From a virus, in IMG/VR virus record IMGVR_UViG_3300030333_005121, positions 1 through 21,384 of that record: DNA of 21,384 nucleotides. One strand, given 5' to 3'. Within the stretch, counting starts at the first letter, position 1; each line of letters starts with the position of its first letter. The notes beneath the pieces are model-generated. The model saw only the letters and a list, made by a program, of their open reading frames with translations. It made no database searches and was not told the origin of the DNA. Position numbers and translations under genes: made by a program. Shown here piece after piece: positions 2,792 through 21,281 of the stretch.

Positions 2792-3445
2792 GTGGCAAAG
2801 GGTATAGTACAAAGAATCACGATGGATGAAGTCAAGGAGAAACTTGGCAAGCTGTCGTTGACGAATCAGTATCAAGTTAACTTCTCATCTTTGAATAAAA
2901 CTATAAGTGATTATCTTCAAAAATTGGGAATTGATAATGCTAAAAATTTCTTATCTAGAGATTTGGGTTTATTATGTTCTGATGCATCATTACCTGCTAG
3001 TGCATTTGCAACTGGTGAAGTGAAGGATAATTTTATGGGTATTCCTCAAGAGTTTGCTCATACTCGTTTATATACTGATATTGATTTTACTTTTTATGTT
3101 GATGAAGATTATACTTCATTGAATATCTTTGAGGGATGGATGGATTATATTTCTGATGGTGCAGACGTAGATCCAGAAACAAAGAATTTCTATAGAAGAT
3201 TTAGATATCCAGATGATTATAAAGTCAATACAATGACAATCACTAAATTTGAAAAGAATCTTCAAAGAACTTTGATGTATGAATTTAAGAATGCTTTTCC
3301 TAAATCAATTACATCTTTACCTGTTACTTATGGTACAGCAGATCTTTTAAAAGTGACAGTTAACTTTAATTATGATAGATACGTTGTAACAAGAAGTGGT
3401 AGTACACAACCAGAATATAGTATATTACCACTTACAAATTCATAG
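2792..3445 (+). CDS. 54: Tail-tube-fold protein, probable baseplate tube initiator gp54
   Basis: A 217-residue protein starting at GTG; AAGG lies about 8 bases upstream, while the next in-frame ATG (2822) has no ribosome site. The segment SDASLPASAFATGEVKDNFMGIPQEFAHTRLY (about 63-94), then DIDFTFYVDEDY and a C-terminal strand pair around LLKVTVNFNYDRYV, is the pattern of the T4 tube-protein fold shared by gp19 and by the C-terminal domains of gp48 and gp54. In T4, gp54 binds gp48 on the finished baseplate and nucleates the gp19 tube. I choose gp54 over gp19 because the gene stands among baseplate genes, away from any sheath gene in view, and because its N-terminus differs from gp19. T4 gp54 is longer (320 residues), so the call is tentative. 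Confidence 0.58.
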   Translation: MAKGIVQRITMDEVKEKLGKLSLTNQYQVNFSSLNKTISDYLQKLGIDNAKNFLSRDLGLLCSDASLPASAFATGEVKDNFMGIPQEFAHTRLYTDIDFTFYVDEDYTSLNIFEGWMDYISDGADVDPETKNFYRRFRYPDDYKVNTMTITKFEKNLQRTLMYEFKNAFPKSITSLPVTYGTADLLKVTVNFNYDRYVVTRSGSTQPEYSILPLTNS

Positions 3446-3490: not shown

Positions 3491-4210
3491 ATGCCATTAC
3501 CAAAGATTAATACTCCAACTTATGAGTTGACATTACCTTCTACAGGAAAAAAGATTAAGTATCGTCCATTTCTTGTTAGAGAAGAAAAAATTCTCATTAT
3601 GGCGTTGGAGACTGAAGATACTGAACAGATAACAAATGCTGTTGTTGATATAATAAGTGGATGTATCCTTACAAAAGGAGTTGATGTTACTAAACTTGCT
3701 ACTTTTGATATTGAATACTTATTCTTAAATGTTCGTTCAAAGTCAGTTGGTGAAAGTGTTGAGGTTAATGTAATTTGTCCTGATGATAATAAAACATCAG
3801 TGCAAGTTGAAATTGATATTGATTCTATTAAAATCCAAAAAACTAAAGGACATAAAAATATTATTAAACTTGATGATCAATACTCTATGAAACTTAAGTA
3901 TCCATCACTTAATGAATTTATTGATACTAATTTTGAATCTAGTGAGGAAAGTGATGTAAATAAATCATTGAATATGATTACTAATTGTATTGAGATGATT
4001 TATGATAAAGAGGAGAGTTGGGATGCTTCTGATTCAACTAAGCAAGAGTTAGAAGAATTTATAGAACAATTAAATAGTAAACAATTTAAAACTATTGAAA
4101 ACTTCTTTGAGACAATGCCTAAACTTTCTCATAAAATTAAGGTAACAAATCCAACGACTGAGGTGGAATCTGAAGTAGTGTTGGAGGGGTTGGCAAGTTT
4201 TTTCACCTAA
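3491..4210 (+). CDS. 26: Baseplate hub assembly protein gp26 (tail chaperone position)
   Basis: A 239-residue protein; T4 gp26 has 208. The N-terminus has the family signature: PTYELTLPSTGKKIKYRPF (about 9-27) followed by LVREEKILIMA. In T4, gp26 is needed with gp51 to form the baseplate hub. The middle (about 70-130) is strand-rich, and the C-terminal half is helical and acidic. The gene lies one small gene upstream of the tape-measure-like protein, exactly where other long-tailed phages place tail-assembly chaperones. Its last codons contain T_TTT_TTC preceded by GGAGG and followed by a hairpin, so some ribosomes probably shift to the -1 frame and continue into the gp51-like gene, giving a 300-residue fusion. 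No strong ribosome site is visible upstream of the ATG. Confidence 0.85.
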   Translation: MPLPKINTPTYELTLPSTGKKIKYRPFLVREEKILIMALETEDTEQITNAVVDIISGCILTKGVDVTKLATFDIEYLFLNVRSKSVGESVEVNVICPDDNKTSVQVEIDIDSIKIQKTKGHKNIIKLDDQYSMKLKYPSLNEFIDTNFESSEESDVNKSLNMITNCIEMIYDKEESWDASDSTKQELEEFIEQLNSKQFKTIENFFETMPKLSHKIKVTNPTTEVESEVVLEGLASFFT

Positions 4211-4240
4211 GTATGGCTCATACCAATCTTGAGTCATACT
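4183..4240 (+). promoter_or_regulatory. Candidate programmed -1 ribosomal frameshift signal
   Basis: Four elements stand in the order and spacing of known bacterial -1 signals such as dnaX. First, an internal Shine-Dalgarno-like GGAGG (4183-4187). Second, after a gap of 10 bases, the slippery heptamer T_TTT_TTC (4198-4204), aligned with gp26 codons TTT (4199-4201) and TTC (4202-4204). Third, a 5-base spacer. Fourth, an 11-bp stem with one G-U pair (4210-4220 with 4230-4240) and a 9-base loop. The -1 frame is open from 4174 to the gp51 stop at 4392. A shift would add H-L-S and then the whole gp51-like sequence after gp26 residue 238. All elements are read directly; that they work together is inference. 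Confidence 0.7.
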
Positions 4241-4392
4241 ATAAAGTAAACTTTGCCTTGGTTCAGCATCATAAATACTCTTTAACAGAGATTGAAAATA
4301 TGATTCCTTGGGAGAAGGAAGTTTATGTAACGTTATTAAGACAGTATATAGAAGAAGAAAATTTAAAGCAAGAACAAAGTGGCACTAATTAA
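4213..4392 (+). CDS. 51: gp51-like hub assembly catalyst / chaperone extension
   Basis: A 59-residue frame, MAHTNLESYYKVNF to KQEQSGTN. The core HHKYSLTEIENMIPWEKEVY (20-39) and the helical tail LLRQYIEEENLKQEQ resemble the conserved C-terminal part of T4 gp51 (249 residues), the protein needed with gp26 to assemble the hub. The short version is usual, as I recall, in marine T4-like phages. Its ATG is two bases after the gp26 stop, has no ribosome site at normal distance (GGAGG is 25 bases away) and lies inside a hairpin stem. The frame is -1 relative to gp26 and is open back to 4174, so the segment is probably made at least partly as a gp26 fusion by frameshifting. It overlaps the GTG of the next gene by 14 bases. 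Confidence 0.75.
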   Translation: MAHTNLESYYKVNFALVQHHKYSLTEIENMIPWEKEVYVTLLRQYIEEENLKQEQSGTN

Positions 4393-5590
4393 TAGTCTAA
4401 CAACTAGACCAAAATTAAATATAAGTAATATCAAATCTCCTTTTGGTAGTAGTGCCACTATACCAAAAATTTCTGCTGGACCAATTGCAAAGGCATTAGG
4501 ACAAGGGATATCTAAACCTAAAACGAGTCCACTTAATATTGATACTTTCCAAATTAAGACAAATATACAAAATATAGATGCGAACATAGCTTTGCGAAAA
4601 CGCATTGATATGTTATCTGGAGCCGTATTCAATATAAATCAACAGTTATCAGAAGTTAATGCGATAATAGGAGATATTGGTAATGCTTTAGCAATGGATT
4701 TTGCAAATAGAATTACAGAACAAAAGCAAGATAATAAAGCATTAAGGGCACAGGCAAGTGCAGAGAAAACAAGTCTTGCTGAAGGTGCATTAGAAAGTAC
4801 AAAAAAAATTGGAAAGGGTATAGGATCTGGAATAACTGGTGTTGCTTCTTCGGTTGGAAAGACATTAGGGTTGGGTAATATATTAAGTGCTGCTAAAATT
4901 CTTGCTGCTGGTGTTGCAATTAATGCATTATGGCCTAGTTTAAAGAAGATATTTGATTGGTCGATGAATAATCTTGATAAGATATTGTTAGTTGGTGGAG
5001 CAATTCTTGCTCTTAATGTTGTTAGTGGAATTGCAGGTTTACTTAAAATTGGATCTTTATTTTTAAGTCCTTGGTTTTGGGCTGCAATGGGAATAGTAGC
5101 TCTCTTAGCAGGAGGTGCTCTTCATGCAAATCAACAACAAAGACTTAGACAAAGTTTTAATGAAACTCATGATGATGAGATTACAACTGTAGAGGAGTTT
5201 AGGGAGGAAAATAAAGGTAAACCTCCAAGCAAGAAAAAACTTAATTTAACTCCAAGTCAGGCATATCTTGAAATGAGTGGACAAGTTTATGGTGGATCTG
5301 CATTACCATTTAATAAGGGTGGAATAGTTCCTGGTTCAGGTAATACTGATACTGTTCCTGCAATGTTAACTCCTGGTGAACTTGTTATTCCTAAAGAATT
5401 AGTAGGAAGATTTACACAATCTAAGATAAATTTACTTGAGATGGATTTACCTACTATTAAGAAAGAACCAACTTTGAATCAAGTAAACCCACCATTACCA
5501 GAAACAACTGAAGTTGAATATATTTCCTCAATTAATCCTTTGAATTCCTATATGACTACAACGCCAGAATTACATGGAATTTGTGCGTAA
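4379..5590 (+). CDS. Tape-measure-like tail protein
   Basis: A 403-residue protein starting at GTG (next in-frame ATG is residue 79), overlapping the gp51-like gene by 14 bases. Residues 75-150 look helical or coiled-coil. Two hydrophobic segments follow: about 201-221 (ILLVGGAILALNVVSGIAGLL) and about 228-248. The stretch GGIVPGSGNTDTVPAMLTPG (314-333), then ELVIPKELV, is a signature common near the C-terminus of phage tape-measure proteins. Its position directly after the gp26/gp51 chaperone-type pair and before gp27 agrees with a tape measure. It is shorter than T4 gp29 (590 residues), and the following 250-residue gene may supply the rest of the length. T4 gp28/gp29 equivalence is inferred from position. 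Confidence 0.6.
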   Translation: MALINSLTTRPKLNISNIKSPFGSSATIPKISAGPIAKALGQGISKPKTSPLNIDTFQIKTNIQNIDANIALRKRIDMLSGAVFNINQQLSEVNAIIGDIGNALAMDFANRITEQKQDNKALRAQASAEKTSLAEGALESTKKIGKGIGSGITGVASSVGKTLGLGNILSAAKILAAGVAINALWPSLKKIFDWSMNNLDKILLVGGAILALNVVSGIAGLLKIGSLFLSPWFWAAMGIVALLAGGALHANQQQRLRQSFNETHDDEITTVEEFREENKGKPPSKKKLNLTPSQAYLEMSGQVYGGSALPFNKGGIVPGSGNTDTVPAMLTPGELVIPKELVGRFTQSKINLLEMDLPTIKKEPTLNQVNPPLPETTEVEYISSINPLNSYMTTTPELHGICA

Positions 5591-6326
5591 GATCATGACA
5601 GCACTAAAAGAAGCAAAAAAACTTAAAATAACAGTAACCAATCTTAGAAGTGTTCTTATAAAAAGAACTAAGAGATTGGCTAATTTAAAAAAGATAAATT
5701 CAAGAGATCAAAATAATTTATTTTCAATACAGAGAAGAAGAAGTAGAGAAAAGAGATTAGAATCTCCTTTAAAATCAATTACTAAGAAAATAGTATCACC
5801 AATAAAGAAAATAGTACCTAAATTAAATATTGGAAAAGTTGTGGGTTTACTTTTTACTGGAGTTGCAGTAAATGCGATTATGAATAACATGGATAAAATA
5901 ACAGAAGGTGCTAATAATTTAAAAGAAAAAGCAGATTCGTGGTTTGGTGGTAATAAAAGTAAGTTAAATAAGATGGAAAAAGAATTAGATAATATTGATA
6001 CTAATAAATTACAAAATATGTCCGATAAATTCTTTAATAATTCGAAATTATTAGATGAAGAATTGTCAAAATTTCAAGGTGAGAGATCAAGAATTAAAGA
6101 AAGCAGTCAAGAAGAGAATAAAAGGCGTTTAGAAAAAACATTTCAAATGGGTGTTTTAACTCCTGGTGGAATTAGTAAGAAAGAGAAAGAAAAGGCAGGA
6201 AAAATTTTTGATACGGATATGATTGTTCCAGAAAATGAAGATGTTAGTAGTGGATTAATGGATAGTAAGTTGTTTGCACAACGTGATACTACTCTTGTTT
6301 TCTTGAATCAACCAATAGAGGTATAA
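5574..6326 (+). CDS. Basic helical protein, probable second tape-measure or hub component
   Basis: A 250-residue protein. The N-terminal 85 residues are strongly basic (runs such as RRRSREKRLE and KSITKKIVSPIKKIVPKL). A hydrophobic stretch (about 87-105, around GKVVGLLFTGVAVNAIM) is followed by charged helical sequence with lysine and glutamate repeats. The segment MGVLTPGGISKKEKEKAGK (about 199-217) echoes the TPG element of the preceding protein. The ATG at 5574 overlaps the upstream gene by 17 bases; a second ATG at 5595, four bases after that gene's stop, is an equally plausible start, and neither has a clear ribosome site. I do not recognise a family. Context suggests a rod inside the tail tube or a hub protein at the place of T4 gp28/gp29. 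Confidence 0.5.
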   Translation: MEFVRKIMTALKEAKKLKITVTNLRSVLIKRTKRLANLKKINSRDQNNLFSIQRRRSREKRLESPLKSITKKIVSPIKKIVPKLNIGKVVGLLFTGVAVNAIMNNMDKITEGANNLKEKADSWFGGNKSKLNKMEKELDNIDTNKLQNMSDKFFNNSKLLDEELSKFQGERSRIKESSQEENKRRLEKTFQMGVLTPGGISKKEKEKAGKIFDTDMIVPENEDVSSGLMDSKLFAQRDTTLVFLNQPIEV

Positions 6327-19607: not shown

Positions 19608-21281
19608 ATGGCATTAAAGGTAAGAAAAGATGGTGCTTGGGTAACTATTGCCGATACAGGCATTAAGGGAGAAAAGGGCCAAAAAGGTGAAAAGGGTGAA
19701 AAGGGTTCTAAAGGTGAGAAAGGACAGAAGGGCGAAAAAGGACAAAAAGGTGAAAAGGGAACTGAAGGATTTAAGGGTGAGAAAGGACAGAAGGGGCAAG
19801 AAGGTGATAAAGGAGAAAAGGGTGAGAAAGGTACTAAAGGGGAAGCTGGAGAAGTAGCAGAAAAAGGACAGAAAGGAGAGAAAGGGCAGAAAGGAGAACA
19901 GGGTGATAAAGGGCAGAAGGGAGAACAGGCTGAAAAAGGAGATAAAGGTGATAAGGGACAGAAGGGTATTAAAGGTGACTTTAAAGGACAGAAAGGTCAA
20001 AAGGGTGATGTAGAAGAACAGGGTAATAAAGGACAAAAAGGAGAAGAGGGTGATAAAGGACAAAAAGGTGAAAAGGGTGCTGTAGAAGAACAGGGTAATA
20101 AAGGTGAAAAGGGACAGAAGGGTATTAAAGGTGACTTTAAAGGACAAAAAGGTGAAAAGGGTGATGTAGAACAACAGGGTAATAAAGGTGATAAGGGAGA
20201 AGAGGGTACTAAAGGACAAAAGGGTGACTTTAAAGGACAGAAAGGAGAAAAAGGACTTAAAGGTGATGTAACACAAAAAGGTGCTAAAGGTGAACCATCT
20301 GATGAAAAAGGGCAAAAAGGTGAAAAGGGTGCTGTAGAGGATAAAGGTAATAAAGGCGATAAGGGACAGAAGGGTATTAAAGGTGACTTTAAAGGACAGA
20401 AAGGACAGAAAGGACTTAAAGGTGATGTAACACAAAAAGGTGCTAAAGGTGAACCCTCTGATGATAAAGGACAAAAAGGTGAAAAGGGTGCTGTAGAGGA
20501 TAAAGGTAATAAAGGTGATAAAGGAGAAAAGGGACTTAAAGGTGACTTTAAAGGACAGAAAGGACAGAAAGGAGTTAAAGGTGATGTAGAAGATAAAGGT
20601 GCTAAAGGTGATAAAGGATTAAAGGGACTTAAAGGTGCTACTGGAGCAGTTGAGGGTGGAGCAGTTCCTGATGGTGCTATTGTTATGATTGAATCTATAA
20701 CAAGCTTGCCATCTAGTTGGAAGGTGTGTAATGGTACTAATGACACACCAGATTTAAGAGACAGATTTATTTTGGGTGATGGTGGTAATAAAACAGATGA
20801 AAATGGTTCTGTTTATGGAACAACAGGTGGTCATTGGGATGGAATGGTATTAGGACACTTCCATGGAGGTGAGACTTTTGCTATTAAATCATGGAGTAAA
20901 CATACTGGTGCAATTAGAGGTATATCCGAAGCATTTAATGATGGTGGTGGTACTGCTGATGGTTTGTTTGCTCCAAGCAAACCAGATCCTAGATTGGATG
21001 CAACTAACGCAAGATATGCTGATAGAGGTAATTGTGGAACGGTTCTTTTAGATCTTGGAGATTGGCACACTAATACTCACCAACATAGTCTTAATACTTG
21101 GGGAGACCCTTATGATAATAACAGTTATGAGTATCCTAGTAATGAAAATATTCCTACTGCATGGACACAAATAGGCCTTGGTATGGATAATAATAGAAAT
21201 GCAGGTGCTTTGAATAGTAATCCTAAAGGAGCTAACATACCACCATATTATAAATTATACTTTATTAAATTTGGTGCTTGA
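19608..21281 (+). CDS. Collagen-like tail fibre with collar-type C-terminal tip
   Basis: A 557-residue protein in three parts. Residues 1-17 (MALKVRKDGAWVTIADT) are a short attachment segment of a type common in marine T4-like fibres. Residues 18 to about 345 are Gly-X-Y repeats dominated by GEK, GQK and GDK, with almost no proline, broken at regular places by GDFK, GDVEEQ, GAVEDK and GEPSDEK. Residues about 355-395 (GAIVMIESITSLPSSWKVCN, then DTPDLRDRFILGDGG) match the phage tail collar domain, and the C-terminus carries two HxH motifs (H417-F-H419, H491-Q-H493) like the metal-binding tips of T4 gp12 and gp37. It has its own late promoter. It probably forms a trimeric rod with a receptor-binding tip. 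Confidence 0.82.
   Translation: MALKVRKDGAWVTIADTGIKGEKGQKGEKGEKGSKGEKGQKGEKGQKGEKGTEGFKGEKGQKGQEGDKGEKGEKGTKGEAGEVAEKGQKGEKGQKGEQGDKGQKGEQAEKGDKGDKGQKGIKGDFKGQKGQKGDVEEQGNKGQKGEEGDKGQKGEKGAVEEQGNKGEKGQKGIKGDFKGQKGEKGDVEQQGNKGDKGEEGTKGQKGDFKGQKGEKGLKGDVTQKGAKGEPSDEKGQKGEKGAVEDKGNKGDKGQKGIKGDFKGQKGQKGLKGDVTQKGAKGEPSDDKGQKGEKGAVEDKGNKGDKGEKGLKGDFKGQKGQKGVKGDVEDKGAKGDKGLKGLKGATGAVEGGAVPDGAIVMIESITSLPSSWKVCNGTNDTPDLRDRFILGDGGNKTDENGSVYGTTGGHWDGMVLGHFHGGETFAIKSWSKHTGAIRGISEAFNDGGGTADGLFAPSKPDPRLDATNARYADRGNCGTVLLDLGDWHTNTHQHSLNTWGDPYDNNSYEYPSNENIPTAWTQIGLGMDNNRNAGALNSNPKGANIPPYYKLYFIKFGA
19659..20655 (+). repeat. Collagen-like Gly-X-Y coding repeat with 159-base higher-order units
   Basis: The repeat is an AAAGGxxxxAAAGG-type low-complexity run encoding Gly-X-Lys triplets. 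GDFKGQKG occurs five times, starting at 19974, 20130, 20223, 20382 and 20541. The last three steps are exactly 159 bases (53 codons), and the two complete 53-residue units at 20223 and 20382 differ at only about four residues, showing recent tandem duplication. Confidence 0.9.

Follow-up and report, generated by a model that had tools for sequence, protein, structure and literature searches.

A putative programmed -1 frameshift joining gp26 to a gp51-like extension at the tail assembly chaperone locus of a marine cyanophage-like virus

In phage P2, a short and a long tail assembly chaperone, E and E+E', are made by a -1 shift, for which the slippery site is T TTT TTG. The corresponding site of lambda G/GT is G GGA AAG, unlike the T TTT TTC considered here, and we know of no hairpin paired with a Shine-Dalgarno-like (SD-like) element in either phage. 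In E. coli dnaX, the heptamer A AAA AAG is flanked by an SD-like element about 10 nt 5' and by a hairpin about 5 nt 3'. For T4-like phages, Vladimirov, Gautam and Davidson (2022, Virology 566:9-15) reportedly described both poly-T slippery sites and the occurrence of separate short and fused long genes.

The lambda locus is similar to the one analysed here in that a -1 shift close to the 3' end lets a single locus encode both chaperone lengths, and the excerpt consulted describes the G-T shift as conserved among long-tailed phages, T4 excepted (PMC5009743). T4 gp26 and gp51 are listed as hub assembly chaperones in an excerpt of PMC3004832. Two further excerpts credit Vladimirov 2022, one with poly-T -1 slippery sequences in the short tail assembly chaperone (TAC-N) genes of T4-like phages (PMC12846349), the other with separate short and fused long genes in some of these phages (PMC10885494); as far as the excerpts extend, the chaperones concerned are the same genes as those analysed here. 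A sequence-only reading of the present DNA had held such a frameshift to be unfamiliar for T4-like phages; according to the excerpt of PMC12846349, however, slippery sites of the poly-T kind have already been published for the chaperone genes of this group. The excerpts of PMC9024508, PMC12859696 and PMC12671138 add nothing on the site, and the excerpts of the literature searched, which did not cover Vladimirov 2022 itself, mention neither the stems nor the SD-like element. We regard the kind of frameshift signal and the gene pair as already known, and the exchanged hairpins and the SD-like element as possibly new.

In this study, we analysed a stretch of 21,384 bases (the window), which is virus record IMGVR_UViG_3300030333_005121, positions 1 to 21,384, itself a fragment. 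We conclude that a programmed -1 ribosomal frameshift very probably operates near the 3' end of its tail assembly chaperone gene, and that the locus is best read as a short/long tail assembly chaperone of the lambda G/GT type with a presumed chaperone function. The proposal that a -1 shift joins gp26 to a gp51-like frame is strongly supported by comparison, through the heptamer, the phase, the RNA structure and the homology to T4 gp51; we infer the shifting itself, its rate and the stimulatory roles of the hairpin and the SD-like element.

The gp26 gene and the signal at its 3' end

The window appears to come from a virus of the T4-like cyanophage type. Its best gp26 match among the phage records listed is Marine virus AG-345-L05 (85.8% identical), which is assigned to Kyanoviridae in its own record. 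The gp26 gene (3491 to 4210; plus strand, as are the parts of the signal and the genes at 2792 to 3445 and 4379 to 5590) encodes a protein of 239 aa that is assigned as TAC-N on the basis of PF12322 and phrog_150. The match to PF12322 (T4_baseplate; E 8.4e-72) reaches 241.8 bits, above the cutoff of 24.5, and that to phrog_150 reaches 268.4 bits (E 1.4e-79). Directly 5' lies the gene of the tail tube protein (2792 to 3445, GTG start as listed; phrog_45, E 4.1e-42; PF23849 Phage_TTP_2, E 1.8e-21), and gp26 is thus placed after the tail tube (major tail) protein gene, as are lambda G/GT-type chaperones. The ORF that follows gp51 (4379 to 5590, 403 aa) occupies the usual place of tape measure genes, and family profile searches gave no tape-measure family match to it. 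This ORF and the next one (5574 to 6326, 250 aa) overlap by 17 nt in different frames at the expected tape measure position, and the profile searches yielded no family match that names either of them. Pfam and NCBIfam matches of the downstream ORFs and of gp51 alone fell under the cutoff and were treated as chance. Farther downstream, an ORF of 557 aa (19608 to 21281) contains a long collagen-like G-x-K-G-x-K repeat and possibly encodes a tail fibre or adhesin.

Near the gp26 stop, the SD-like GGAGG (4183 to 4187) is read directly 10 nt 5' of the slippery heptamer, with the gap at 4188 to 4197. The heptamer T TTT TTC (4198 to 4204) is in the gp26 phase (AGT TTT TTC ACC TAA), and the zero-frame stop TAA (4208 to 4210) follows one codon 3' of it. 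After a 5-nt spacer (4205 to 4209), a putative stimulatory hairpin occupies 4210 to 4240, in which 4210 to 4220 pairs with 4230 to 4240 in 11 bp, one of them G-U. GGAGG, the heptamer and the hairpin, with their gap, phase and spacer, were re-read exactly as the sequence-only reading had placed them. The fold of 4198 to 4260 has an energy of -15.2 kcal/mol, small second stem included (z -4.82; 0/200 shuffles equally stable). As sequence anatomy, the three-part layout of dnaX is therefore present in the window, with gaps of 10 and 5 nt, whereas the heptamer differs and the gene is unrelated.

The -1 frame C-terminal extension (gp51-like, TAC-C; 4204 to 4392) consists of 62 codons and a stop, the first codon taking the C of the heptamer. 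It had been described as open from 4174 to 4392; the frame is indeed open over this interval, but 4174 is only where it opens, and the -1 part of the fusion begins at 4204. Translation of the -1 product of gp26 and the gp51-like frame gives 300 residues, in agreement with the size claimed for the joined protein. The gp51 part matches phrog_634 (E 1.1e-27) as well as columns 239-278 of phrog_150 (E 9.7e-6). The hairpin's 5' arm includes an ATG (4213 to 4215) from which annotations of relatives start gp51 as a gene by itself; read from there, gp51 is a frame of 59 residues.

In the mechanism that we propose, most ribosomes would translate gp26 to the TAA at 4208-4210, releasing TAC-N, the short form of 239 aa. 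The hairpin at 4210-4240 would pause a minority of them, which, aided by pairing of GGAGG at 4183-4187 with 16S rRNA, would slip one base back on T TTT TTC, where both tRNA-Phe could re-pair with TTT TTT. Reading in the -1 frame from 4204 would then give the 300-aa long form (TAC-NC) with its gp51-like end. The two forms would act like lambda gpG and gpGT by binding the tape measure protein and bringing in tail tube subunits, and neither would be retained in the virion.

The slippery heptamer among relatives

Relatives were found by gp26 similarity, blind to the slippery site, and the sample consisted of the best 80 loci for each of four queries, 11 from a fifth query and 25 phage records, T4 included. 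From 357 records, the window included, T4 (L084, gene 26 on the opposite strand) and two that end before the stop (L156 and L336) were dropped, leaving 354 with a gp26 stop. Those that were long enough and closed (346) reduced to 206 non-redundant loci (<90% identity over 600 nt), and tests on 203 loci refer to these minus three without the heptamer. Locus counts are not independent, as the loci are kin and the scans took in at most the best 80 matches per query. Four loci fetched later (L358-L361) stand outside the counts; the two XZ1-like ones have the T6 heptamer and the two KNP4-like ones have G GTT TTC.

The T6 heptamer is present in phase in 351/354 of the loci listed, in 336 of these as TTTTTTC at -10 from the stop. 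Among the 203 non-redundant loci, the Phe-Phe pair is TTT TTC in 201, TTT TTT in one and TTT TTG in one, and the codon before it (AGT, TCT, AAT, GAT, GCT or GGT) ends in T in all 203, where usage predicts 133. At the remaining positions of these genes, 71% of Phe codons are TTT, and only 1/223 of the other Phe-Phe pairs reads T TTT TTC. When codon columns were tested one by one, the two Phe codons of the site were the sole 2 of 202 that showed full identity (1.00) across 6000 compared pairs. Their excess (0.28, z 2.9) over what is expected is equalled or surpassed by two columns at the start of gp26. None of the 203 fusions has an internal stop. Conservation of the slippery site far exceeds what codon constraint would give, and the check for which the sequence-only reading had called, conservation of heptamer and phase in relatives, was borne out. 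The conserved -1 residues between the heptamer and the ATG (FFR-I-A and similar) were not counted as evidence because they are partly fixed by the last gp26 codon and the stop.

The heptamer by itself is not unusual in the window, in which TTTTTTC occurs 11 times on both strands against 10.7 expected. This frequency is what might be cited for the view that two adjacent genes lie in -1 phase by accident, or that the join is a sequencing artefact. What exceeds chance at the site is its phase, its place and its conservation, not mere occurrence of the heptamer, and the recurrence of the same phase and T6 at nearly all loci listed, from many contigs and isolates, refutes accident or artefact, to which we give practically no credence.

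TTTTTTC is found as far as Schizotequatrovirus XZ1, Aeromonas ZPAH1, Stenotrophomonas Ps15 and Agrobacterium OLIVR5, with variant sites in Sinorhizobium phiN3 (TTTTTTT) and Rhizobium RHph_N34 (TTTTTTG, the same as the P2 site). The sequence-only reading had named relatives with the same gene order that lack a slippery site or have an unjoinable phase as what would refute the frameshift, and such relatives turned up only at the margin. Three distant loci do lack the heptamer, namely phiA8-29 and KNP4 (Ackermannviridae per their records) and Vibrio K397 (no family given), but their -1 frame is still open. No heptamer of the form X XXY YYZ is present near the gp26 stop in these three or in two of the four later-fetched loci, both KNP4-like. 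In all five (L088, L089, L091, L358 and L359), the -1 frame is open and gp51-like, and A CTT TTC or G GTT TTC replaces T6; the latter is also the site of T7 gene 10.

The T run is exactly six in 202/203 loci, and the second Phe codon is TTT in only one of the 203, though TTT is the commoner Phe codon. A limit on the rate of shifting, or on transcriptional slippage, may be under selection at this run. Transcriptional slippage might also join the frames directly, by adding or dropping a base on the T run, and six consecutive T in a genome rich in AT would suit this. We nevertheless consider it highly improbable: the run reaches seven or more in just 1/203 loci, the closing C is kept in 201/203 despite the preference for TTT, contrary to what selection for a slippery template would produce, and RNA stems with covariation are located downstream.

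Downstream stems and the SD-like element

Over the 203 loci, the 45-nt window just 3' of the heptamer has a mean minimum free energy of -12.0 kcal/mol against a background of -5.1 kcal/mol, the lowest of the region scanned; it is the single most stable window of the locus in 45% and among the top 5% in 68%. Synonymous randomisations averaged -5.2 against the observed -12.0 (mean z -3.1, p<=0.05 in 79%). A further, shallower minimum (-8.4) of the folding profile lies about 95 nt 3' of the heptamer.

The downstream stem is not one homologous element, but rather a set of lineage-specific hairpins, which we call A, B and C. Type A is the 11-bp stem of the window. Type B (S-WAM2-like) is a different stem in which CTCTTCCA is paired with TGGAAGGG, and type C is a short G-R-T-Y-C stem around ATAT. 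Loci more stable than their synonymous randomisations number 75/76 in type A, 32/41 in type B, 25/30 in type C and 28/56 among the others.

Of the 11 type A pairs, 10 are formed in 33 or more of the 34 distinct windows with at least 70% gp26 identity, chosen blind to structure, and the remaining one in 30; covariation was absent from these 34, in which the pairs hardly vary. In the 73 distinct type A sequences, one pair changes from U-A to A-U or G-C, with both sides changed in 16 sequences. Altogether there are 17 double-change cells, and this number and the covariation score were each reached by 0/500 shuffles, a count that leans towards structure as types were assigned by pairing or motif. 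The weak point of type A is the number of pairs with both sides changed, since the observed 2 were reached by 32/500 shuffles and a control slid by +2 gave 4, while the cells and the score were not exceeded by that control. Stem C was assessed in the full set of 48 non-A loci with 55-70% identity, taken with no selection for a stem; 86% of cells pair, and double changes occur in 5/5 pairs (5/500 shuffles) and in 30 cells (0/500). The 20 S-RIM2-like loci have no clear hairpin within 45 nt (mean z -0.62, 4/20 below -1.65), and wider windows of 80 and 120 nt gave mean z values of -0.24 and -1.34, with 4 and 9 loci below -1.65. Conservation of the hairpin, which had likewise been proposed for checking, thus holds on average, with covariation in two different stems, but is not universal.

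GGAGG occurs within 20 nt 5' of the heptamer in 68/203 loci, always separated from it by 10 nt, compared with 22 of 6675 control windows from the same genes. Glu at this site is encoded by GAG in 128/155 cases against 30% elsewhere, and GGAGG is absent upstream of the heptamer in all 41 type B loci. Because of the fixed gap, the GAG bias and the absence from type B, the SD-like element looks to be under selection in some lineages and would not be a universal part of the signal.

gp51 as an extension and its relation to T4

An alternative to frameshifting is that termination and reinitiation yield gp51 as a small protein of its own: after termination at TAA 4208-4210, with the hairpin opened, ribosomes would restart at ATG 4213. 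The spacing TAAgtATG suits this alternative, gp51 is annotated as a gene in relatives, and an early start codon is present in 139/203 loci, including every locus of types A (76/76) and C (30/30), along with 33/56 of the others. No type B locus (0/41) has one, however. As far as 15 nt beyond the gp26 stop, the -1 frame offers neither ATG nor GTG nor TTG in 66/206 loci, all 41 of type B among them, and yet it stays open. Reinitiation would moreover leave unexplained the codon-independent conservation of T TTT TTC and the makeup of T4 gp51, a gp26-like plus gp51-like protein. As a replacement for the frameshift, we consider it very unlikely. The two processes may operate side by side in the lineage of the window, where a free gp51 started at ATG 4213 beside the fusion is possible. 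A separate gp51 gene is not the general rule. The 21,384-base fragment contains no second gp51 match at E<=1 besides this locus, and the window does not carry the long form as a full-length gene of its own, as in the two-gene pair of the T4 type.

In T4, genes 26 (-) and 51 (+) are divergently placed, and therefore no frameshift can join them. T4 gp26 matches PF12322 as well as columns 14-235 of phrog_150 and aligns only with the first part of the fusion. T4 gp51, on the other hand, matches PF12322 over residues 1-201 and phrog_150 over columns 13-280, of which cyanophage gp26 fills 5-233 and cyanophage gp51 fills 239-278. A profile of the 203 fusions aligned with T4 gp51 across the junction in hhalign (fusion columns 12-282, probability 96.5), and in hmmsearch it scored 32.9 bits over columns 76-284, the best of 1000 shuffled proteins reaching 9.6; the C-terminal part alone scored 19.8 against 9.2 for shuffled proteins. 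As it aligns along the fusion, across the junction, T4 gp51 is the long form, a gp26-like part with the C-terminal domain, encoded as its own gene. In this comparison T4 gp26 corresponds to the short form and T4 gp51 to the -1 fusion. The earlier suggestion that T4 gp26 and gp51 are a split form of the same system is too simple, as T4 gp51 already carries both domains.

The predicted model of gp26 (pLDDT 88.7) was compared with solved structures. VIA-align placed 11/916 chains at Z >=2, led by 3fgx (8.0), the HK97 tail assembly chaperone 2ob9 at rank 2 (7.9, favourable though short of Z 8, the caution level of the tool; rmsd 4.1 over 84 residues), 3klu (6.9) and 5ir0 (5.1), before a drop to 2.7. 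We take 3fgx and 3klu to be prophage proteins of the same chaperone kind. Foldseek found no PDB match at E 0.001; 2ob9 ranked 13 (E 1.3), with a probability of 0.72 that was the highest among the best 50 matches. In the set of predicted viral structures, the top matches that carry a name were baseplate hub subunits from myophages, T4-like and others. A search of the gp26 profile against the sequences of solved structures returned three chains at E<=5, the best at 0.21 (MtrB), and nothing meaningful.

Beyond the window, we lean towards a broader picture in which T4-like cyanophages, and some further T4-like groups, retain an almost invariant heptamer while the stimulators turn over. At least three unrelated hairpins (A, B and C) would have been swapped at one place, with some lineages retaining the SD-like element and another lacking it, and with the S-RIM2-like group having no clear stem. 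In the same picture, gp51 would be only a frameshift extension where there is no start codon, and T4 gene 51 would be derived from this arrangement, the short and long forms having become two genes. This turnover of stimulators beside a constant heptamer is what deserves further attention, and the natural variants, with three stems and with or without the SD-like element, offer a ready series on how stimulators tune -1 frameshifting. That cyanophage 'gp51' has about a quarter of the length of T4 gp51 would be explained by its being the tail of a longer chaperone. Records in which its annotation is missing could be corrected, as gp51 is unannotated in 5/12 cyanophage records (ACG-2014d, S-CAM1, S-WAM2, ACG-2014e and DSL-LC03).
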